Below are positions 15,908 to 55,273 of a stretch of 55,273 nucleotides of DNA, in pieces (within the stretch, counting starts at the first letter, position 1; each line of letters begins with the position of its first letter). The DNA lies in the NCBI GenBank assembly GCA_949545755.1, contig CATITK010000021.1:1-55273 (forward strand), written 5' to 3'. Source of the stretch: Polaribacter sejongensis. GTDB lineage: Bacteria; Bacteroidota; Bacteroidia; Flavobacteriales; Flavobacteriaceae. A program made the position numbers and the translations under genes. The notes under the pieces were generated by a model. It saw nothing but the letters and a program-made list of their open reading frames with translations, ran no database searches and was not told the DNA's origin.

Positions 15908-17740
15908 ATGAAATATTTTAAACGATTTCTTAAATATGCAATACCCTATAAATGGACAGGTATTATAAGTGTTTTTTTAAATGTGATGTATGCATTATTC
16001 TCTGCCTTGTCTTTTTTGACATTGATCCCCATGTTAAATGTATTATTTGGTGATAGTGAAAAAATACACACAAAACCTTATTTAGAAAGCTATGCTAGTA
16101 TCAGCAAAGAATACTTAGAAAATTATTTGAATTATTTAATTACAATCAATACCGAAAATTTTGGACCTGAAAGTACGTTAACCTATATGGTTTTCAGTGT
16201 CGTTATTGTTTTTTTTCTTAAAAACTTATTCGGGTATTTTGCAGGATTATTTATGGTATTCCTGAAAAACTCGGTACTCAAAGATTTGCGTAATGAGATT
16301 TATCAAAAAATAATAAGTCTTCCTGTATCTTTCTTTTCTACAAAAAGAAAAGGAGATATTATCTCTAGAGCAACTGGCGACATTGGCACAATTAACGAAA
16401 CATTTCTTAATTTATCTATTGTAATTATTAGAGAACCTTTAAACATCATTTTTACATTGATCTTTATGGTCAACCTAAGTTTTGAGTTGTCTTTATTTGT
16501 GTTCACCTTTATTCCAATATCTGGTTGGGTCATTTCAGTAATTGGTAAAAAAATAAAAGGTCAATCTTCCCAACTTTTTAAAGAAGGTGGAGTGATGCTG
16601 AGTATTATTGAGGAAACCATTACAGGTTTGAAAGTAATCAAAGCCTTTAATTCTGAAACTTTCTTCGGTAAAAAATATGATTCTTTCAATCTTAGAGTTA
16701 AAAATTTGAGTAACAAATTAGCACAGAGAGACTCTATGGCATCTCCGATGAGTGAGTTTTTAGGAATTGCTACAATAGCCTCTCTTTTATGGTTTGGAGG
16801 AAGAATGGTATTGATTGATGAGAGTTTAAAAGCAGGGACATTTATTGCCTTTATGGGATTGGCGTATAATATTTTAACTCCTGCAAAAGCTATTTCTAAA
16901 GCAAGTAATGCTGTTAAAATAGGAAACGCTGCCGCAGAGAGGGTGATTGAGATTTTAGATACGGAGAATCATCTAGAGGATAACAACAGTTCTCAAATAC
17001 TGACTTCTTTTGAGAAAGAGGTTCGTTTTGAAAACATCTCCTTTAAATACAAAGACGAATATGTTTTAAAGAATTTTTCGCTAACCATTCCGAAAGGAAA
17101 AAAAATTGCATTGGTTGGTCAATCTGGTAGTGGAAAATCTACCTTGGCGAATTTAATTACTCGTTTTTGGGATGTAAATGAAGGAAAAATAACGATTGAC
17201 GGAATCAACATTAAAGAAGTAACCACCCATTCTCTGCGAAAACAAATGGGAATTGTAACCCAAGATTCTATCTTATTCAATGACAATATCGCCAATAATA
17301 TCTCTTTGGGTATTGAAAACCCAAGCCATGACAAAATTGTAGCAGCTGCTAAAATTGCCAATGCGCATGATTTTATTATGGAAATCCCGAAACAATATGA
17401 AAGTCCTGTAGGAGATAGTGGAGGTATGCTGTCAGGAGGACAAAAACAACGTCTTGCCATTGCGAGAGCCGTTATGAAAAACCCACCTATTATGATTCTA
17501 GATGAAGCAACTTCTGCTTTGGATACCGAGTCTGAAAAATTAGTGCAAGATGCTATTGAAAAAATGATGGAGAACAGAACTTCATTGGTCATTGCACATC
17601 GCCTTTCTACCATTCAGAATGCGGATCTAATTGTAGTAATGAAAAAAGGATTGATTGTAGAACAAGGAACCCATGAAGAATTATTAGCGATGAATGGAAC
17701 TTATACTAATTTGGTGACATTGCAACAGCTAGAGTCTTAA
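15908..17740 (+). CDS. ABC transporter ATP-binding protein/permease, MsbA-like
   Basis: 610 residues, a fused half-transporter that would work as a homodimer. The N-terminal exporter domain (about 10-330) has six transmembrane segments. The nucleotide-binding domain shows Walker A GQSGSGKST, the signature LSGGQKQRLAIARAV, Walker B IMILDEATSALD and the H-loop IAHRLS. The sequence is of the MsbA/lipid-exporter type, and it borders the glycosyltransferase block, which fits export of a lipid-linked glycan or lipid A. The cargo is not proven. A second, different exporter of this class is at 40.1-41.9 kb. Confidence 0.88.
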   Translation: MKYFKRFLKYAIPYKWTGIISVFLNVMYALFSALSFLTLIPMLNVLFGDSEKIHTKPYLESYASISKEYLENYLNYLITINTENFGPESTLTYMVFSVVIVFFLKNLFGYFAGLFMVFLKNSVLKDLRNEIYQKIISLPVSFFSTKRKGDIISRATGDIGTINETFLNLSIVIIREPLNIIFTLIFMVNLSFELSLFVFTFIPISGWVISVIGKKIKGQSSQLFKEGGVMLSIIEETITGLKVIKAFNSETFFGKKYDSFNLRVKNLSNKLAQRDSMASPMSEFLGIATIASLLWFGGRMVLIDESLKAGTFIAFMGLAYNILTPAKAISKASNAVKIGNAAAERVIEILDTENHLEDNNSSQILTSFEKEVRFENISFKYKDEYVLKNFSLTIPKGKKIALVGQSGSGKSTLANLITRFWDVNEGKITIDGINIKEVTTHSLRKQMGIVTQDSILFNDNIANNISLGIENPSHDKIVAAAKIANAHDFIMEIPKQYESPVGDSGGMLSGGQKQRLAIARAVMKNPPIMILDEATSALDTESEKLVQDAIEKMMENRTSLVIAHRLSTIQNADLIVVMKKGLIVEQGTHEELLAMNGTYTNLVTLQQLES

Positions 17741-40121: not shown

Positions 40122-41882
40122 TTAAATTTTTGATTGATAGGTAAATAAATCAAAATACCTTCCTTTTGTTGCAATTAACTCATCATGTGTACCTCTTTCA
40201 ACAATACTTCCAGATTCTATAACTAAAATTTGATCAGCTTGTTTTATGGTACTTAGTCGGTGGGCAATGACAATGGTCGTTCTATCTTTTACTAATTCAG
40301 ACAAGCTTTTTTGAATTAAAGATTCACTTTCTGTATCTAAACTCGAGGTTGCTTCGTCTAAAATTATAATTTTAGGGTCTGCCAAAATTGCTCTAGCAAT
40401 TGCCAATCGTTGACGCTGACCTCCTGAGAGTTTTACCCCTCTTTCTCCAATTAAAGTATCTAAACCTTTTTCAAAGCGATCCGTAAATTCATTAACATAA
40501 GCTGCTTTTACAGCATTTTGTAAATCTTCTTCGGAAGCATTAGGTCTTGGAAATAAAATATTTTCTTTAATAGTTCCTTCAAACAAAAATTCATCTTGTA
40601 AAACGACACCTAAATATTTCCTATAACTAGACAATTTTACTTTAGACATGTCTTGATTGTCAATGGTGATTTTACCTGATTTTGGATTTAAAAAGGTAGC
40701 AGACAAGCCCGCTATTGTAGATTTTCCAGAACCAGAACTTCCAACCAAAGCAGTTACAGAACCAGAAGGAACTTGAAAACTGATATTATTTAACACGTCT
40801 TTTCCTGCTTCGTAAGAAAAAGACACATCATCAAAAACAAGGGTTCCTTTCATGTTTTCTATAACAATTGACCTCTGTGGATCGTCTTCTTCGGCAGGCA
40901 TATTCATTAATTCTTCGGTTCTATCCAGACCAGCAAGCGCTTCTGTTAATTGGCTTCCAATATTACTCATTTGAACAATAGGCGCAATCATAAAACCTAA
41001 CAGTAAGGTAAAAGAAAGAAAGTCTCCAACAGTTAATTCGCCTGTCATAATTTTATAACCTCCAATTCCCATAATTCCTGTAGAAGCAATTCCTAATAAA
41101 AAAGTGGCAGAACTTGTCATAAATGCTGTTGCCGTTAAACTCTTTTTTACATTTTGAAACAACTTGTCTACACCTTTTTCAAAAGTTTCATTCTCTTGTG
41201 CTTCTGCATTAAAGGCTTTGATAACTCTCACCCCAGAGAGTGTTTCCGTTAACCTTCCTTTTACATCTGCACTTATAATGCCTCTGTTTCTAAAAATAGG
41301 ACGTATGTATTTGAATGCTTTTAAAGCCACAAGGCCAAAAACTGCGACAGGAACCAACACAAAAAAGGTCATTGACGGACTTATTTGAATCAGTAAAATC
41401 ATAGAAATTACTGCTGTAATTGTTCCCCCAACAAGTTGAACCAAACCGGTTCCTATTAAGTTTCTAACTCCTTCTACATCACTCATAATTCTAGAAACTA
41501 ATGCACCTGATTTTGTGTTATCAAAAAAACTTATGGGTAAAGACACTACTTTTTTTTGAACTTGCGCTCTTAATTCTGAAATTAAAAACTGTGCCTGTAC
41601 ACTTAAAATTCTGGTTAACAAAAAAGAGGTGATGGATTGTACTAAAATTGCCAATCCAACGATAAATAATAAATGATATAATTGGTCATAATCTTTATTC
41701 GGAATTACCTCATCTAACAAAGCCTTACTTTTCCAAGGCAACACCAAGCTAGAGAGTCTACTTAAAACAATAAGAACCAACCCTATGAAAACTAATTTTC
41801 GCTTTGGCCAAATAATTGTTTTAAACGCTTTTAAGATGGAAACTTTGGGTTTATTTTTTTTTGAATCTTTAAGATGCTGCAT
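40122..41882 (-). CDS. ABC transporter ATP-binding protein/permease
   Basis: 586 residues, fused half-exporter. The membrane domain (about 25-320) contains six segments and SLPISFFDNTKSGALVSRIMSDVEGVRN. The ATPase has Walker A GSSGSGKST, signature LSGGQRQRLAIARAI, Walker B IIILDEATSSLD and H-loop IAHRLST. It is a different paralogue from the exporter at 15.9 kb, closer in style to BmrA/MsbA multidrug/lipid exporters. Cargo unknown. It stands alone, 72 bases upstream of the DUF6503 lipoprotein gene. Confidence 0.88.
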   Translation of the reverse strand: MQHLKDSKKNKPKVSILKAFKTIIWPKRKLVFIGLVLIVLSRLSSLVLPWKSKALLDEVIPNKDYDQLYHLLFIVGLAILVQSITSFLLTRILSVQAQFLISELRAQVQKKVVSLPISFFDNTKSGALVSRIMSDVEGVRNLIGTGLVQLVGGTITAVISMILLIQISPSMTFFVLVPVAVFGLVALKAFKYIRPIFRNRGIISADVKGRLTETLSGVRVIKAFNAEAQENETFEKGVDKLFQNVKKSLTATAFMTSSATFLLGIASTGIMGIGGYKIMTGELTVGDFLSFTLLLGFMIAPIVQMSNIGSQLTEALAGLDRTEELMNMPAEEDDPQRSIVIENMKGTLVFDDVSFSYEAGKDVLNNISFQVPSGSVTALVGSSGSGKSTIAGLSATFLNPKSGKITIDNQDMSKVKLSSYRKYLGVVLQDEFLFEGTIKENILFPRPNASEEDLQNAVKAAYVNEFTDRFEKGLDTLIGERGVKLSGGQRQRLAIARAILADPKIIILDEATSSLDTESESLIQKSLSELVKDRTTIVIAHRLSTIKQADQILVIESGSIVERGTHDELIATKGRYFDLFTYQSKI

Positions 41883-47131: not shown

Positions 47132-48223
47132 CTACTTTCTTGCTTTCAAGTATAAATAGATTGCCAAAGAACCAAAAGCAATATTTGGCATCCAGACGTA
47201 TAATAGAGAATTAACCCCTGCAACGGCGCCTAATACTTCCGATATTTTCATCAGGAAAACATAAAAGAACATAATGCCAATACCTATTGTTAAATTGACC
47301 CCTGTACCTCCTCTTCTTTTTCTATAAGCTAAAGCAACTGCAATAATTGTTAATATATAGGAGGCAATTGGTAAACTCGTTCTTTTATGAAACTCTACCA
47401 AATATGCATTTAAATTTTTAACACCTCTTTTTTTAGAAATCTCAATAAATTCATTTAATTCTCCTGAAGGCATTTCTTGTGCCAATGCAGATTTATAAAT
47501 TAAATCTTTGGGTGTAAAGTTGAAAACAGTATCAATTGTTGATCCAGAAGAAATATGATCTCTATCTGAATAAATTTTACGGATTTTCCAATTTGAAAGG
47601 GTAAATGTAGAATCAGTATCATTAAAAACTATTCTGCTTGAAACTAATTTTGACTTCAATTGAATCCCATCGTAAACTTCGGATGTAAAATCGTAACCCG
47701 ATTTTTTTTCTGTATTAAAATTTCGGATAAATATATAGGTACTGTCTGATAGCTGTAAACTAAACTCTTTTACAAATTTAAATTCATTTTTTTGCCGTCT
47801 ACTTTTCAGATATTCTTTTTCGAATTTTTTTCTTTCTTTACTACTATTTGGTACCCCAAAGTGATTCATCCCTAAAGAAATAATAGTTATTAAGGAAGCA
47901 CCTACAAAATAAGGAAACAAAAATCGTGTAAAAGAAACTTTTGCATTTGTAATGGCTATAATTTCTGTATTGTTTGAGAGTTTAGACGTAAAGACGATTA
48001 CAGCAATAAATAATGCCAAAGGCATAAAGGTATTTGCATAATAGATAATGAAATTCTTGTAGTATTCATCTACTATTTGCTGAAACCCTAAATCTGTATG
48101 TTCTAAAAAGTTATCAACCTTTTCTGAGATATCAATCGCAATAGCGATAGGAATCAAGATTAATAAGGTGAACACAAAAGTTACCAAAAATCGTTTTAAT
48201 ATGTACCAGTCTATTATTTTCAA
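47132..48223 (-). CDS. LptF/LptG family permease (YjgP/YjgQ)
   Basis: 363 residues. Three N-terminal hydrophobic segments (about 10-35, 55-80, 95-115), a long periplasmic domain (about 125-265) and three C-terminal membrane segments (about 275-360) is the layout of LptF/LptG, which with LptB2 extract LPS from the inner membrane. Markers include IIDWYILKRFLVTFVFTLLI at the start, FHKRTSLPIASYILTIIAVA and GIGIMFFYVFLMKISEVLG. LptF and LptG cannot be told apart here. It follows tgt by 62 bases on the same strand. Confidence 0.88.
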   Translation of the reverse strand: MKIIDWYILKRFLVTFVFTLLILIPIAIAIDISEKVDNFLEHTDLGFQQIVDEYYKNFIIYYANTFMPLALFIAVIVFTSKLSNNTEIIAITNAKVSFTRFLFPYFVGASLITIISLGMNHFGVPNSSKERKKFEKEYLKSRRQKNEFKFVKEFSLQLSDSTYIFIRNFNTEKKSGYDFTSEVYDGIQLKSKLVSSRIVFNDTDSTFTLSNWKIRKIYSDRDHISSGSTIDTVFNFTPKDLIYKSALAQEMPSGELNEFIEISKKRGVKNLNAYLVEFHKRTSLPIASYILTIIAVALAYRKRRGGTGVNLTIGIGIMFFYVFLMKISEVLGAVAGVNSLLYVWMPNIAFGSLAIYLYLKARK

Positions 48224-50502: not shown

Positions 50503-51105
50503 TTATAATTCTATTGTTCTAAAGGTTAAATTAATTCTCGCTGTACTTACTTTTTTCGTTGGTGGTAATCTGTGCAACCAGTTTGTTTGTGTTCCTTTCT
50601 TCATAACCAATAAACTCCCGTTTTCTAAGAGAACATCTACACGTTGTTTGTTCTCTTTATGCTTAAAAGAAAATTTACGTGCCACTCCTAAAGATAGTGA
50701 AGCTATTACGCCATCTTTCTTTAACATTTTTTCCGCATCTGAATGATAGGCCATTCCTTCTGCTCCTGAATGATATAAATTTAACAAACAAGAGTTGTAG
50801 GTTTCTCCACTTGCATTTTCTATTATTTCTTTGAGTGCTAACAATTCTTTGGTAAATATCTTTGCCTTTTTTGTAATCTTAGAATAGGTGTAAGAAAATT
50901 CTGATGTTCCATACCAGGCGACCTTTCTTTTAGTAATTATCTTTTTACCAAATATAATTGCTTCATCATTTTTAAAATGAATCGTATCTCTTAATTTTTG
51001 ATAATAAAAATCACATTGGTTATTATCTAAAATGGGACCATGGTAATTTGAAATTCCATCAAAAGGTAAAATATTTTTTATGATTGCTGTTGAGAATAAA
51101 TCCAT
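50503..51105 (-). CDS. AlkB-like alpha-ketoglutarate-dependent dioxygenase
   Basis: 200 residues, close in size to the AlkB/ALKBH2 family. Fe(II) ligands are in GMAYHSDAEK (H-x-D) and TQTNWLHRLPP (the distal His), and ARINLTFR supplies the 2-oxoglutarate-binding Arg. Relatives repair N-alkylated bases in DNA or RNA by oxidative demethylation. It opens MDLFSTAIIKNILPFDGIS. It lies 33 bases upstream of the pseudouridine synthase gene on the same strand and is divergent from the DUF4956 gene. Confidence 0.88.
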   Translation of the reverse strand: MDLFSTAIIKNILPFDGISNYHGPILDNNQCDFYYQKLRDTIHFKNDEAIIFGKKIITKRKVAWYGTSEFSYTYSKITKKAKIFTKELLALKEIIENASGETYNSCLLNLYHSGAEGMAYHSDAEKMLKKDGVIASLSLGVARKFSFKHKENKQRVDVLLENGSLLVMKKGTQTNWLHRLPPTKKVSTARINLTFRTIEL

Positions 51106-51242: not shown

Positions 51243-51956
51243 ATGTTTGACCTTTCAAACCTGAACAATAACCTAGAAGGAACTTCACTAACCAACATCA
51301 TTGTGATTGCGTTGGTTTCTTTTGCACTTTCCTCTTTAATAGCGATAACCTATCAAAGAACTTCTCGGGAAATTGAGAGTCCTAAATATTTTATTCAATC
51401 TTTAATTTTGATTTCTATTCCGGTAGCAACCGTAATGCAGGCAATAGGTGACAGTCTAGCGCGAGGTCTGGGAATGCTAGGAGCCTTAGCGATTATTCGA
51501 TTTAGAACTACCTTGAGAAATCCAAGAAATATGGTTTTTATGTTTACCTCTATTGCAGTCGGTATTTCTGCAGGTATCTATGGAATTCATATTGCATTAA
51601 TAGGCACAATTGCTTTTTGTTCCATCGTTTTTTTAATTTACTTTTCGCCAATTAGTAAAACAAATCATGTCGTAGGGAATCTCCAATTTGAAATTCCAGA
51701 TAGTGCTTTAGAATCTGAAGATACTTGGCAAAAAATTGAAGAAATTTTAAAAATAAACTGTGTTAAATTCTCACTAACAAAATACAGTGTAGCTGGAAAG
51801 GGCAAAAACAAAGGGAGATCTAAAACAGTACTATTTGCATTTAAGATTAAAGTTGTTGATCAAGAAAAAGCCAAATACATTGTAAATAAACTATCTAAAA
51901 CCGAAGGCGTGTTTAACATAAAAATTAACTTTATAGATGACTATGAAAAAATTTAG
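51243..51956 (+). CDS. DUF4956 domain-containing membrane protein
   Basis: 237 residues. Three to four hydrophobic segments occupy the first 135 residues (about 18-40, 52-70, 85-130), and a cytosolic C-terminal domain follows from about 145 (FEIPDSALESEDTWQKIEEI ... KLSKTEGVFNIKINF), an alpha/beta ferredoxin-like region. The segment GDSLARGLGMLGALAIIRFRTTLRNPRNMVF is the DUF4956 signature (shown here in part as GMLGALAIIRFRTTLRNPRN). In other bacteria the family often accompanies VTC-type or CotH genes; here it leads an operon with an adaptor and a TolC-like gene. Function unknown. Confidence 0.82.
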   Translation: MFDLSNLNNNLEGTSLTNIIVIALVSFALSSLIAITYQRTSREIESPKYFIQSLILISIPVATVMQAIGDSLARGLGMLGALAIIRFRTTLRNPRNMVFMFTSIAVGISAGIYGIHIALIGTIAFCSIVFLIYFSPISKTNHVVGNLQFEIPDSALESEDTWQKIEEILKINCVKFSLTKYSVAGKGKNKGRSKTVLFAFKIKVVDQEKAKYIVNKLSKTEGVFNIKINFIDDYEKI

Positions 51957-52950
51957 TCCTATACATATAGCTGCCCTACTTGCAGGCATCCTTTTAATCG
52001 TTTCTTTTTCATTAAGAATGAATACTTCAGTTACCTTTTATGGTTTTGCTGAAAATAAGGAAACACAAATTAATATGGAAAACCCAATAGAAGTTTCTCG
52101 AATTCATGTGACGACAGGACAAAAAGTAAAAAAAGGAGCTATTTTACTCGATGTGTTTTCTTCCATATTGCCCGTTAAAATTAATAATGCAACCTACAGC
52201 ATCGAAGAATTAACTACCAGATACTCGATTTGGAAAACTGATCTAGACGGTCGCATTGCAGAGACTACGATTTTACTCAACGAAAAAAGAAGTAAATTTA
52301 AGGCGCAAATAGCAGAATATTATGCGCAATTAGAGAACAACAAAAAACTAGCCAATACGCTAAAAAGTATTGATCTAAGTAACACATCTCAACAAGCCAA
52401 TTCCAATCCGATACTTATTAGAATTAACGCCCTAAAAGAAGAATTAAAATTTGCGGTGGATATCCTAACCACACAAATAAACAATTTAAAAACAGAGCGA
52501 TTCGCTTCCAACAACCCATTGCTTTCTAGAATTAAAATACTAGAAAAAGAGTTGAAGTATTACCAGTTAAAAAAAGAAAAAGAAACCATTTTAGCTCCTT
52601 CAAATGGATTGATAGGAACTATTCATTGTAAGGAAGATGAAAAAATAGCCTCTTTTACACCGTTGGTTACTTTCTATGAAGAAAGCCCAACATTAGTTAT
52701 TGGTTATATACATGAAGACCTACTTTTAAAGGTAAAACTTCAAGATATCATTACCGTCTTTTCAACATCAAGACCTGACATACAAAATACTGGTATTATT
52801 AAAACTTTAGGCTCTCGAATTGTTGAAATACCGCCAAGAATTAGAAAGATAAAAGAACTTAAAACTTTTGGTAGAGAAGTAATTATTGAAATACCACCTG
52901 ATAATCCTTTTTTACAAAAAGAAAAAGTAACCTTAACCTTAGCTCAATAA
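51937..52950 (+). CDS. HlyD-like periplasmic adaptor (membrane fusion) protein
   Basis: 337 residues. One N-terminal membrane anchor (about 8-26), then a biotinyl-lipoyl-like half-motif (IEVSRIHVTTGQKVKKGAIL, about 50-70), a long helical coiled-coil (about 85-215) and the second half (ETILAPSNGLIGTIHCKEDE) leading into a beta-barrel. This is the layout of membrane fusion proteins of type I secretion and RND efflux. It overlaps the DUF4956 gene by 20 bases (or 14 from the second ATG at 51943), so translation is coupled. The usual ABC or RND partner is absent here. Confidence 0.84.
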   Translation: MTMKKFSPIHIAALLAGILLIVSFSLRMNTSVTFYGFAENKETQINMENPIEVSRIHVTTGQKVKKGAILLDVFSSILPVKINNATYSIEELTTRYSIWKTDLDGRIAETTILLNEKRSKFKAQIAEYYAQLENNKKLANTLKSIDLSNTSQQANSNPILIRINALKEELKFAVDILTTQINNLKTERFASNNPLLSRIKILEKELKYYQLKKEKETILAPSNGLIGTIHCKEDEKIASFTPLVTFYEESPTLVIGYIHEDLLLKVKLQDIITVFSTSRPDIQNTGIIKTLGSRIVEIPPRIRKIKELKTFGREVIIEIPPDNPFLQKEKVTLTLAQ

Positions 52951-52967
52951 AAATAGCCAAAAATAAA

Positions 52968-54224
52968 ATGTGTTTTTCGTATAGACTTCAACTTTTATTA
53001 TTTTTTTTAGGGATGTCTTTCCTTTCTGGAAATGCACAAAAAGGAATTTCAACGACCCAATTGCTTCTTGGAGCAAATCAAATAGAACAGGTAAAATTTG
53101 ATTCTATTCAATTAGCATTTCTTAAAAATTACAATCATAATTTACAGCTTATAGACAATATAGAGTTTAGAACCGAAACAAGAGATTTACTTCTACCTAG
53201 ACAAGAATATGCCATCAGGGTTAAACCCAATAGCTTGCGAGGGAGGCTTGCTAATAAAAAGGTCTACAGATCAAAAATTAATGAAGTTCAAATTCAAGGA
53301 CGGATCCGACTTATTGAAGAATTAGAAGACCGCTATTATTTCTTAGTTGCTTATGTATTCAATAAGAAACTAATTGGTGCCTATCAGTTTAGAAAAACGC
53401 AATTAAAGGATAAAATATCACTATTAAAGACAGCTATTTACACCGAAGTTTTTAATGTAAATGACCTTATTGACACTGAAGAAGCGCTCTTTGATAATCA
53501 AATTATTTTACAAAACCTACAGCAATCACAAGTATATCATGATGCCATATTACAACTCATGATTGGTAATCGTAAAAACAATCATTATCTAAAAAGCGAT
53601 GATGTTATAACTCCAGCACAAATTATTGCCAATGCTCTTATTGTAAAAACTCCAAAAGACAACTTAGAAATTCAGTTGAAACAATTAAAACTAGAAACTA
53701 TAGAAGGCGAAATGAAATTAGATGTCGCAAAATCTAAAAAAATTATTGATTTTGTTCAAGTAAAATATGGTGGTAAGAATAGTAACTTATTTGAAGAAAA
53801 ATTCGCAATAGGAATGGGTATAAACCTCCCATTCTTTGGAAACGTTAGAGAAAAAAAAGGGGATTATTATTTCAAGAAGCTCCGTACTGAAAGTGAAATA
53901 TTAACACTTCAAAAACAACAAGAAAAAGTAGAAACCACTGCTGAAGAAAACTTTAGAAGAACAGTAACGAACTATCAAGTATACAGGGATCAAGCAGCAA
54001 ATAGCAGTGTGTCTTCGCTTTTAAATACCTACAAAAAAATTGAAGGAATTTCACCGCTCATTCTATTAAAACTCGAGATGAGTGTTCAAAATAAAAATAT
54101 TGAAATTATTAAAATCGAACAGCAACTCTATGAGACATACATAGAAATACTTGCCAGTAAAAATAGATTATTTCAAATACCTTTTAAAAACTTCCTGAGT
54201 ACAAATAAATCGCTAGCGCAATAA
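52968..54224 (+). CDS. TolC-like outer membrane efflux protein
   Basis: 418 residues. A signal peptide (about 1-24, ending SGNAQ) is followed by alternating long alpha-helices as in TolC/OprM: one block about 35-190 and a second about 235-400 with the repeat YYFKKLRTESEILTLQKQQE. FAIGMGINLPFF at about 275 is the beta-strand stretch of the outer-membrane barrel. The coiled-coil content and length fit an outer-membrane channel. It follows the adaptor gene by 17 bases, so the three genes of the operon belong together. Sequence conservation is low and confidence in the TolC call rests on architecture. Confidence 0.8.
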   Translation: MCFSYRLQLLLFFLGMSFLSGNAQKGISTTQLLLGANQIEQVKFDSIQLAFLKNYNHNLQLIDNIEFRTETRDLLLPRQEYAIRVKPNSLRGRLANKKVYRSKINEVQIQGRIRLIEELEDRYYFLVAYVFNKKLIGAYQFRKTQLKDKISLLKTAIYTEVFNVNDLIDTEEALFDNQIILQNLQQSQVYHDAILQLMIGNRKNNHYLKSDDVITPAQIIANALIVKTPKDNLEIQLKQLKLETIEGEMKLDVAKSKKIIDFVQVKYGGKNSNLFEEKFAIGMGINLPFFGNVREKKGDYYFKKLRTESEILTLQKQQEKVETTAEENFRRTVTNYQVYRDQAANSSVSSLLNTYKKIEGISPLILLKLEMSVQNKNIEIIKIEQQLYETYIEILASKNRLFQIPFKNFLSTNKSLAQ

Positions 54225-54402: not shown

Positions 54403-55273
54403 CTATTTCTCTAACTGCATAAAATAATCAAAAATTTCTGGAACATTAGCACTTCCCATATCTGCACTAACAGCAGCCTTAAGATTTGTAGAAGTAGCTT
54501 CAGCAATAAGAGAAGTTGTACCAAGATCATTCATCATTTGCACAAAATATCCTAAATCTTTGTTCGCATTAGCAATAGAGAAACCTAAATCACTTACGTT
54601 GTCAACAGCATAATGTTTGCAAAATTTCATAAATGGAGAGTTTGAAGGCCCAGAAGACATGATGTCAAACAATTGCTGTGTATCTACACCTGCTAATTTT
54701 GCCGCAACGAAGGCTTGTGACATCGCAACAACGGTAGTCATACCTATAAAATTATTGATAAGCTTCGTTGTGTGTCCAGCGCCAAGAGCACCAAGATAGA
54801 ATACATTTTCACCTTGTTCGTCTAAAACTGGCTTTACTTTATCAAAAGTTTCTTTATTACCTGCTGCCATAATGTTTAGCAATCCATCTTTAGCATGAGC
54901 AGGAGTGCGCCCTAATGGAGCATCAATCATGCCAGCACCTTTTTCTGCAAGAGCTTTACCTATTTTTATAGTAGATGCAGGGATCGATGTTCCAAAATCA
55001 ATCAAAACAGCACCTTCTTTAATACCAGCAAGGATACCATTTTCACCATAAACAATCTTTTCAACAACAGCAGAAGTTGTAAGACATAACATAATGATAT
55101 CACTCTTTGCAGCTAATTCTTTTGGAGAACTAGCTTCAGATGCATTACCCCGAGTAATAACTTTTGCAACTTCATCTTTATTAAGATCGATTACTATTAG
55201 CTCAAAACCTCTTTTTTGAAGATTTTCAACCATGTTACCACCCATAAGGCCAAGTCCTATAAATCCGATAGTA
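54403..55273 (-). CDS. NAD(P)-dependent 3-hydroxyisobutyrate dehydrogenase-type enzyme, 5' end cut
   Basis: The right edge cuts the gene; 290 codons are inside. Reading past the first internal ATG at 55245, the upstream codons translate as TIGFIGLGLMGGNM, the GxGxxG Rossmann motif of this family, so the true start lies just outside the window. Later come CLTTSAVVEKIVYGENGIL, FGTSIPASTIKIG, DAPLGRTPAHAKDGLLNIMAAG (substrate-binding), the catalytic Lys in GAGHTTKLINNFIG and a C-terminal helical domain. Such enzymes oxidise 3-hydroxyisobutyrate, tartronate semialdehyde or related beta-hydroxyacids; which one is unclear. Confidence 0.9.
   Translation of the reverse strand, partial: TIGFIGLGLMGGNMVENLQKRGFELIVIDLNKDEVAKVITRGNASEASSPKELAAKSDIIMLCLTTSAVVEKIVYGENGILAGIKEGAVLIDFGTSIPASTIKIGKALAEKGAGMIDAPLGRTPAHAKDGLLNIMAAGNKETFDKVKPVLDEQGENVFYLGALGAGHTTKLINNFIGMTTVVAMSQAFVAAKLAGVDTQQLFDIMSSGPSNSPFMKFCKHYAVDNVSDLGFSIANANKDLGYFVQMMNDLGTTSLIAEATSTNLKAAVSADMGSANVPEIFDYFMQLEK

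Follow-up and report, generated by a model that had tools for sequence, protein, structure and literature searches.

The trio locus

The DNA analysed here, called the window throughout, is a 55,273-nucleotide contig of Polaribacter sejongensis (CATITK010000021.1, our contig C21) from a 2.11-Mb assembly of 170 contigs that is 89% complete (genome handle G000; other genomes and loci are identified by G and L numbers). It carries three plus-strand genes, referred to together as the trio, that are predicted to encode a DUF4956 inner-membrane protein, a HlyD-type periplasmic adaptor and a TolC-type outer-membrane factor (OMF). The open reading frames (ORFs) reproduced exactly the layout given in a preliminary description of this DNA: the adaptor gene overlaps the DUF4956 gene by 20 bases from its first ATG, or by 14 from its second, and 17 bases separate the adaptor's end from the OMF start. 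Both flanking genes lie on the minus strand and are apparently unrelated to the trio (Table 1).

Table 1. The trio, its internal features and other genes of the window (the Pfam scan covered part of the window's genes)
Feature	Positions	Strand	Basis or location
DUF4956 (MgtC-like) predicted inner-membrane protein, 237 amino acids (aa)	51243-51956	+	PF16316 match; predicted structure; MgtC profile alignment
Most conserved DUF4956 stretch, residues 69-89, GDSLARGLG..GALAIIRFRT	51447-51509	+	Conserved columns of 50-row alignment
ACT-like (ferredoxin-fold) C-terminal domain of DUF4956, residues 142-232	51666-51938	+	Foldseek/VIA structure matches
Predicted HlyD-type periplasmic adaptor, 337 aa	51937-52950	+	Pfam matches of family members; PDB profile matches
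Predicted TolC-type OMF, 418 aa	52968-54224	+	AlphaFold2 model; Foldseek; OEP matches in family members
2OG-Fe(II) oxygenase gene	50503-51105	-	Trio flank
3-hydroxyisobutyrate-dehydrogenase-like gene	54403-55245	-	Trio flank
ABC exporter gene (ABC_membrane + ABC_tran)	15908-17740	+	~34 kb upstream of trio
ABC exporter gene (ABC_membrane + ABC_tran)	40122-41882	-	~9 kb upstream of trio
LptF/LptG permease gene	47132-48223		Pfam

Relationship of DUF4956 to MgtC

The label DUF4956 held for the first gene product, which exceeds the Pfam gathering cut-off for PF16316 (53.2 versus 30.6 bits); the same model matched all 50 aligned family members at E ≤ 0.01. An AlphaFold2 model (mean predicted local distance difference test score, pLDDT, 84) contains five predicted helices (residues 16-40, 48-68, 72-88, 94-111 and 115-134) and a C-terminal domain with the order beta-alpha-beta-beta-alpha-beta. 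When the 50-row alignment is combined with the helix limits of the model, the charged residues D70, R74, R86 and R88 fall at or near the ends of predicted helix 3.

The C-terminal domain resembles NikR, ACT and S6 domains (Z scores of 9.6-11.6 among the matches listed by Foldseek/VIA) and matches the C-terminal domain of MgtC (2lqj) with a Foldseek E value of 6e-4. Alignment of the 50-row DUF4956 profile with a 19-row MgtC profile in hhalign gave a probability of 96.1% (E 3.3e-9) over 195 columns that take in both the membrane part and the ACT-like domain, while an unrelated membrane family, used as a control, scored 0.1%. The window's protein lies under the Pfam cut-off for MgtC/SapB (PF02308; 14.3 versus 31.4 bits), and PF02308 matched 11 of the 50 aligned members at E ≤ 0.01 (best 1.2e-4). 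Likewise below its cut-off, the Pfam MgtC model detected DUF4956 genes in G150, G442, G457, G404 and G392, and the window's DUF4956 as query found an MgtC gene in G166. PDB sequence searches with the DUF4956 profile gave nothing useful. VIA-align listed the C-terminal domain only (residues 140-237), so for the membrane part it is sequence profiles that support kinship with MgtC. As judged from these comparisons, DUF4956 is related to MgtC across both its membrane part and its ACT-like domain. The latter is probably cytoplasmic, in which case R86, R88 and R92 of the model would lie on the inner side of the membrane and D70 and R74 on the outer side.

Divergent, shorter DUF4956-like genes (189-217 aa) were seen in L220, L221 and L222 (G556, G431 and G552), one of them directly after a gene of the VTC polymerase family; possibly they are relatives without the full ACT-like domain.

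The adaptor and the outer-membrane factor

As a single sequence, the window's adaptor matches HlyD and RND_mfp models below cut-off only, but 29 of the 30 aligned members of its family match HlyD_D23 and 27 match HlyD_3 (E ≤ 0.01), so that its earlier description as HlyD-like was sound. The best matches of the adaptor profile among solved PDB structures were MacA (2e-8) and EmrA (7e-8). The protein has one N-terminal hydrophobic segment, judged by eye, and a conserved C-terminal signature that reads approximately SRIVEIPxRLRK...GREVxIxIPxDNxFLQKEKV. Family-wide profile matches of this kind assign the trio adaptor to the HlyD family.

The TolC-like label of the third product began as a guess from sequence, with no meaningful Pfam or NCBIfam match for the window's protein. 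PDB sequence searches with single trio proteins and with the OMF profile gave nothing useful, and a fold search was therefore needed. The AlphaFold2 model (mean pLDDT 88.4) has a TolC-like order of helices and strands, and its best Foldseek match was E. coli TolC (3e-12). Among 43 rows at E ≤ 0.001, the titles named TolC/OprM-type or efflux channels, six reading only 'a membrane protein from Pseudomonas aeruginosa'. The N-terminus is signal-peptide-like by eye, and OEP was matched by 13 of 42 family members at E ≤ 0.01. The predicted structure thus has a TolC fold, and the guess was borne out. No relatives of the OMF were found in viral contigs.

Some adaptors are longer (626-688 aa) and carry an extra C-terminal domain (L139:8749-10755, L135:8688-10568, L123, L140, L144 and L146). 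In six loci the adaptor ends in a fused domain akin to the C-terminal domain of L139, which itself matched the SdiA-regulated family below cut-off only. Phytase-like or SdiA-regulated propellers also have genes of their own: these separate the adaptor from the OMF in L148 and, with a match below cut-off, in L138, and they come after DUF4956 in L063 and L064.

Conservation of the trio and its gene orders

To follow the trio beyond the window, named genomes were searched with a trio-derived DUF4956 alignment and the best 80 of 558 relatives were retained, a set biased toward trio-like loci. ORFs came from a simple script that takes the longest ORF and breaks down in high-GC genomes; gene orders were read from same-strand ORFs with split ORFs merged, and an operon was defined by a common strand and gaps of ≤ 200 bases. 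Across the 80 loci, in which DUF4956 identity ranges from 35 to 66%, all three trio genes were present in 77, and the other three (L078, L123 and L136) lie at contig ends. DUF4956, adaptor and OMF are consecutive same-strand genes in 72 of the 80, and this order is therefore not confined to the window's genome. One gene is inserted before the OMF in L138 and L148, and in L140, L144 and L146 an adaptor-OMF-VTC run lies upstream of DUF4956. Spacing is tight: a gap of ≤ 10 bases or an overlap separates DUF4956 from the adaptor in 51 of 75 loci, and the adaptor from the OMF in 57 of 75.

Sixty-six of these loci are from Bacteroidota. The 14 others are labelled Chitinivibrionales, Chitinispirillaceae, Fibrobacter, Deltaproteobacteria, Desulfobacteraceae, Desulfatirhabdium, Delongbacteria, Planctomycetota and Gammaproteobacteria, labels that may err because all 14 records are metagenome bins. 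L138 and L148 are among the Chitinispirillaceae loci, and cultured species also carry the trio, for example Neolewinella persica and N. maritima (L117 and L126). Within the window's own family the OMF is rare, occurring in 2 of 149 genomes, the window's included; the second, G090, has the same trio.

A less biased view came from a phylum sample of 296 genomes, 53 of which matched the window's DUF4956. We took a census of the surroundings of 59 DUF4956-matching places, the window among them, leaving out four matches that were weak and two places where no ORF could be called (L198 and L216, the latter with an OMF match and a strong adaptor match nearby). A HlyD-type adaptor gene lies on the same strand within four genes of DUF4956 in 49 of the 53 census loci. 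The orders were DUF4956-adaptor-OMF in 19 loci (16 of them from one family, code f37), adaptor-VTC-DUF4956 in 20, VTC-DUF4956-adaptor in 8 and others in 2. Matches to the adaptor profile were concentrated close to DUF4956, with 50 among 327 ORFs within three genes versus 2 among 239 further off. The adaptor of the adaptor-VTC-DUF4956 order had no Pfam name in seven of eight cases scanned, the eighth passing HlyD_3; its profile aligned with that of the trio adaptors at 96.3% (E 1.8e-9), a match at the level of the superfamily rather than of orthology, because HlyD-type proteins share general features. A rapidly built tree of 102 DUF4956 proteins, with several long branches and without bootstrap, sets the adaptor-VTC type apart from the trio type (SH-aLRT 99) and groups the VTC-bearing trios together (SH-aLRT 87). 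These observations indicate that the trio is a conserved set of genes and that DUF4956 is paired almost constantly with an adaptor.

Several local arrangements were also seen. In many Bacteroidota (L063:9572-10648; L059-L062 and L064-L067), VTC and DUF4956 are immediately preceded by a gene of an adaptor-like family of ~355 aa, mostly without a Pfam name, and no OMF-profile match was found within four genes of it. The f37 loci L051-L053 and L055-L058 share a fixed set of genes around the trio that includes YceI, DUF6580 and a short-chain dehydrogenase. In L068 (8637-9671), the DUF4956 gene is followed by a Porin_O_P-like gene and CotH, without an adaptor; the Porin_O_P-like gene is possibly another outer-membrane exit.

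Pump genes near the trio

The preliminary description noted that no ABC, RND or MFS pump was present. This is true of the window's own trio operon, which contains no pump gene; it is not true of the window as a whole, which encodes two ABC exporters elsewhere. A regular expression for the ABC signature found nothing in the operons of 91 loci, with a pattern insensitive enough to miss an ABC ATPase in L123. A profile built from the window's two ABC domains matched 1 of 450 ORFs in the 91 operons (L088), its other matches lying outside operons. No ABC or RND gene reliably accompanies the trio, an issue that the preliminary description had proposed to settle in other genomes. Among 79 operon neighbours, the 25 commonest of 136 Pfam families include no pump family, a count in which rarer families are hidden; these neighbours exclude one 1668-aa protein, CotH and lamin-tail-domain (LTD) proteins, ORFs of < 120 aa, locus-end ORFs and 11 older loci. 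Pumps turn up near the trio now and then, without recurring.

Proteins in L082 (one gene upstream), L213 and L217 have two ABC domains plus ABC_tran_Xtn and no membrane-domain match in Pfam, and we read them as probable ABC-F proteins, which are translation factors and not exporters. The genes in L213 (1979-4030) and L217 (1644-3707) each immediately precede a VTC-DUF4956-adaptor run, in two genomes that share a genus code.

CotH and VTC

The preliminary description placed DUF4956 beside VTC or CotH genes in other settings, and the trio overlaps that setting: in G442, from the phylum sample, CotH, DUF4956, adaptor, OMF, VTC and LTD genes form one run. We searched 49 trio genomes, representing 50 of the 80 loci with L076 left out, for CotH and VTC, and 48 carry CotH somewhere in the genome. 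CotH is present in 107 of the 296 phylum-sample genomes, comprising 49 of the 49 with a clear DUF4956 match versus 58 of the 247 others (Fisher 3e-26, ignoring shared ancestry). This cross-table assumes that the DUF4956 and CotH scans drew the same 296 genomes (same group, number and handles) and drops the weak DUF4956 matches G166, G431, G552 and G556, with which the count becomes 51 of 53. Many genomes have CotH and no DUF4956, so the dependence is one-way. Two LTD-containing CotH proteins are encoded on other contigs of the window's genome, and one of them resembles the 988-992-aa trio neighbours of L071-L073 (28-30% over ~900 aa). Across the 43 CotH domains, D, N and WD positions are conserved, and we take these to be catalytic.

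VTC genes lie in 12 of the 14 loci outside Bacteroidota, the contigs of the other two end, and all 14 genomes carry VTC. In the census, VTC is within four genes of DUF4956 in 31 of 53 loci. VTC was found in 33 of the 49 trio genomes; for Bacteroidota, by our own split, the figure is 19 of 35 trio genomes versus 36 of 198 phylum genomes, the families differing between the two. From this base-rate comparison, VTC is not a requirement for the trio. All 36 of these VTC genomes carry CotH. Yeast Vtc4 is a relative of the VTC domains (E 7e-19), in which basic and acidic residues are conserved; we read their columns as R264, R266 and E426 in the numbering of the available part of PMC9911596 (our alignment is numbered otherwise).

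A candidate conduit without a classical pump

The preliminary description suggested that DUF4956 might be the inner-membrane part of an unrecognised apparatus. The near-constant adaptor pairing in three gene orders, together with the absence of a recurring pump, supports such a role; assembly into one complex, export, cargo and driving force are what we infer beyond it. Our reading, held with about even confidence, is that the trio with its MgtC-like DUF4956 forms an envelope-spanning conduit. In the inner membrane, DUF4956 would stand in for an ABC, RND or MFS pump, a position suggested by its being the inner-membrane protein that accompanies the adaptor, and the HlyD-type adaptor would link it across the periplasm to the TolC-type channel. 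Such a conduit would serve cells with secreted CotH-type kinases and LTD proteins on display. At loci whose operon includes a VTC polymerase gene, its cargo would probably be a phosphate-rich product of the cytoplasm. In VTC genomes, polymer synthesis could provide the push, driving the chain through DUF4956 as proposed for yeast VTC; in VTC-less genomes, the driver might be the membrane potential or a gate opened via the ACT-like domain.

A number of observations weigh against this reading. CotH or LTD genes lie inside the operon in only 31 of the 80 loci, the close relatives L071-L075 included, and the window contains no CotH-profile match. One trio genome (G705, locus L137) is an exception to the presence of CotH, the control Bacteroides ihuae has DUF4956 and VTC with no CotH match, and the statistic joining CotH to DUF4956 takes no account of shared ancestry. 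VTC is in none of the 66 Bacteroidota loci, and the window's genome, in an assembly 89% complete, gave neither a VTC nor a PPK1 match. Four of the 53 census DUF4956 genes (L068, L197, L211 and L218) have no adaptor nearby. L088 has an ABC-2 permease and ATPase upstream in the operon with glycosyltransferase genes (Pfam), and a nine-helix neighbour in L100 is MFS-like by our reading. MgtC itself is associated with inhibition of the F1Fo ATP synthase or with a role in Mg/phosphate homeostasis, and MgtC proteins of known role regulate rather than transport. The accessible text of PMC12345266 likewise cites MgtC relatives as inhibiting ATP synthase and targeting PhoR.

The foremost alternative, which we consider unlikely while giving it real weight, is that adaptor and channel serve a conventional pump encoded elsewhere, for example an ABC exporter, and that DUF4956 is an accessory or regulator that gates this pump, its ACT-like domain serving as the sensor of phosphate, Mg2+ or membrane potential. 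The regulatory roles of MgtC relatives just described fit this view, as do the two ABC exporters elsewhere in the window, the ABC pair in the operon at 1 of the 80 loci (L088) and the sharing of TolC between pumps. Adaptors, however, usually accompany their own pump; here they accompany DUF4956, in three gene orders, and no pump gene recurs beside the trio.

It seems improbable that the trio exports polyphosphate in all genomes, with VTC- or PPK1-made chains passing through DUF4956, adaptor and OMF. The window's genome has neither a VTC nor a PPK1 match at its 89% completeness, so polyphosphate is an unlikely cargo there. G664 (L071) and G668 (L075), whose DUF4956 proteins are close relatives, also gave no match to either; with PPK1 missing from these three genomes, polyphosphate is not a general answer on present evidence. 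The proposal draws on the VTC genes in 12 of 14 loci outside Bacteroidota and near DUF4956 in 31 of 53 census loci, on the relation of VTC to Vtc4 with its conserved charged residues, and on the conserved arginines of DUF4956. PPK1 was found in 24 of 27 trio genomes without known VTC (18 searched for VTC, 9 without a recorded VTC search), but since PPK1 is common its presence says little. Moreover, the Streptococcus intermedius mutant of the VTC gene, SIR_1593, still aggregated and made Pel, according to the available part of PMC12345266.

A signalling or regulatory apparatus, in which DUF4956 relays a signal between cytoplasm and envelope and the adaptor and OMF are structural, is less probable again. 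The ACT-like domain would suit it, and in S. intermedius, which is without an outer membrane, the accessible portion of PMC12345266 reports more Pel in the SIR_1592 mutant and less in the CotH mutant SIR_1594; yet a TolC-type channel has no obvious purpose if no cargo passes, and the commonest neighbour families include neither sensor kinases nor regulators. Chance adjacency of the three genes, to which the occurrence of the OMF in only 2 of 149 genomes of the window's family might point, is rejected as next to impossible by an order kept in 72 of 80 loci from several phyla.

The conduit reading also has a bolder form, which starts from CotH as the common denominator and which we regard as a long shot: the trio would be a machine that exports a phosphate donor so that proteins can be phosphorylated extracellularly. 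A cytoplasmic donor, polyphosphate where VTC is present and otherwise a nucleotide or another phosphorylated compound, would cross the inner membrane through DUF4956 without a classical pump and leave by way of the adaptor and TolC-type channel. Secreted CotH kinases would use it to phosphorylate LTD proteins and type IX-secreted surface proteins. If true, this would explain the presence of CotH in every clear DUF4956 genome of the phylum sample. To our knowledge, the phosphate source of kinases outside the cytoplasm is an open question, to which the bolder form would offer a testable answer. If the conduit reading holds, HlyD- and TolC-type proteins gain a new class of inner-membrane partner, with an MgtC-like protein at the pump position, and DUF4956 acquires a cellular location. 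The trio also connects a Vtc4-like polymerase domain with an exit across the outer membrane, in records of Fibrobacterota and Desulfobacterota.

Comparison with known systems

Tripartite efflux and type I secretion systems (AcrAB-TolC, MacAB-TolC, EmrAB-TolC and HlyBD-TolC) likewise combine, as the trio does in one operon, a HlyD-type adaptor, a TolC-fold channel and an inner-membrane protein. The trio differs in that its inner-membrane protein is MgtC-like and that it has no ATPase and no RND or MFS match. With MgtC/SapB (PF02308), DUF4956 shares a helix region with a GxGxLGA stretch followed by a C-terminal ACT-like domain; it differs in its sub-cut-off score, in its other conserved charged residues and in its adaptor neighbours.

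For yeast VTC, the available part of PMC9911596 proposes that polymer synthesis is coupled to passage through a basic channel. VTC-bearing trio loci encode a similar Vtc4-like tunnel domain and would need a separate basic transmembrane path: the bacterial VTC proteins, at ~250-300 aa, are too short to hold SPX and membrane domains as well. The window's genome further differs in having no VTC match.

A literature search, with most subscription papers and all bioRxiv preprints outside its reach, found no publication on a DUF4956-adaptor-OMF exporter trio. In the accessible portions of two papers, DUF4956 appears in expression lists, as BT3498-99 together with DUF2490 (PMC10434189) and in PMC6848847. 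CotH and VTC terms also occur in two Clostridium perfringens papers (PMC2879425 and PMC11677781), whereas in PMC7356697 CotH is just part of an author's name. Already in print, as far as the available text of the following two papers goes, are the MgtC/ACT architecture of a streptococcal homologue and the linkage of CotH, VTC and DUF4956. In Gram-positive pel loci, DUF4956 adjoins pel genes together with CotH and a polyphosphate polymerase (PMC7112168). SIR_1592 of S. intermedius combines an MgtC transmembrane domain with an ACT domain, and Pel levels and aggregation are altered when SIR_1592 or SIR_1594 is mutated (PMC12345266). Taking the two papers together, we believe SIR_1592 to be the DUF4956 gene of S. 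intermedius. The pel accessory genes (SIR_1594-1592) thus have the same DUF4956, VTC-type and CotH families as neighbours that we see at trio loci; they differ in being pel-linked and in belonging to single-membrane cells, with no adaptor or OMF mentioned in the portions available. The authors did not find the CotH-polyphosphate polymerase-DUF4956 synteny outside the Pel locus, whereas here the DUF4956, VTC and CotH families adjoin one another in Bacteroidota, Fibrobacterota and Desulfobacterota records.

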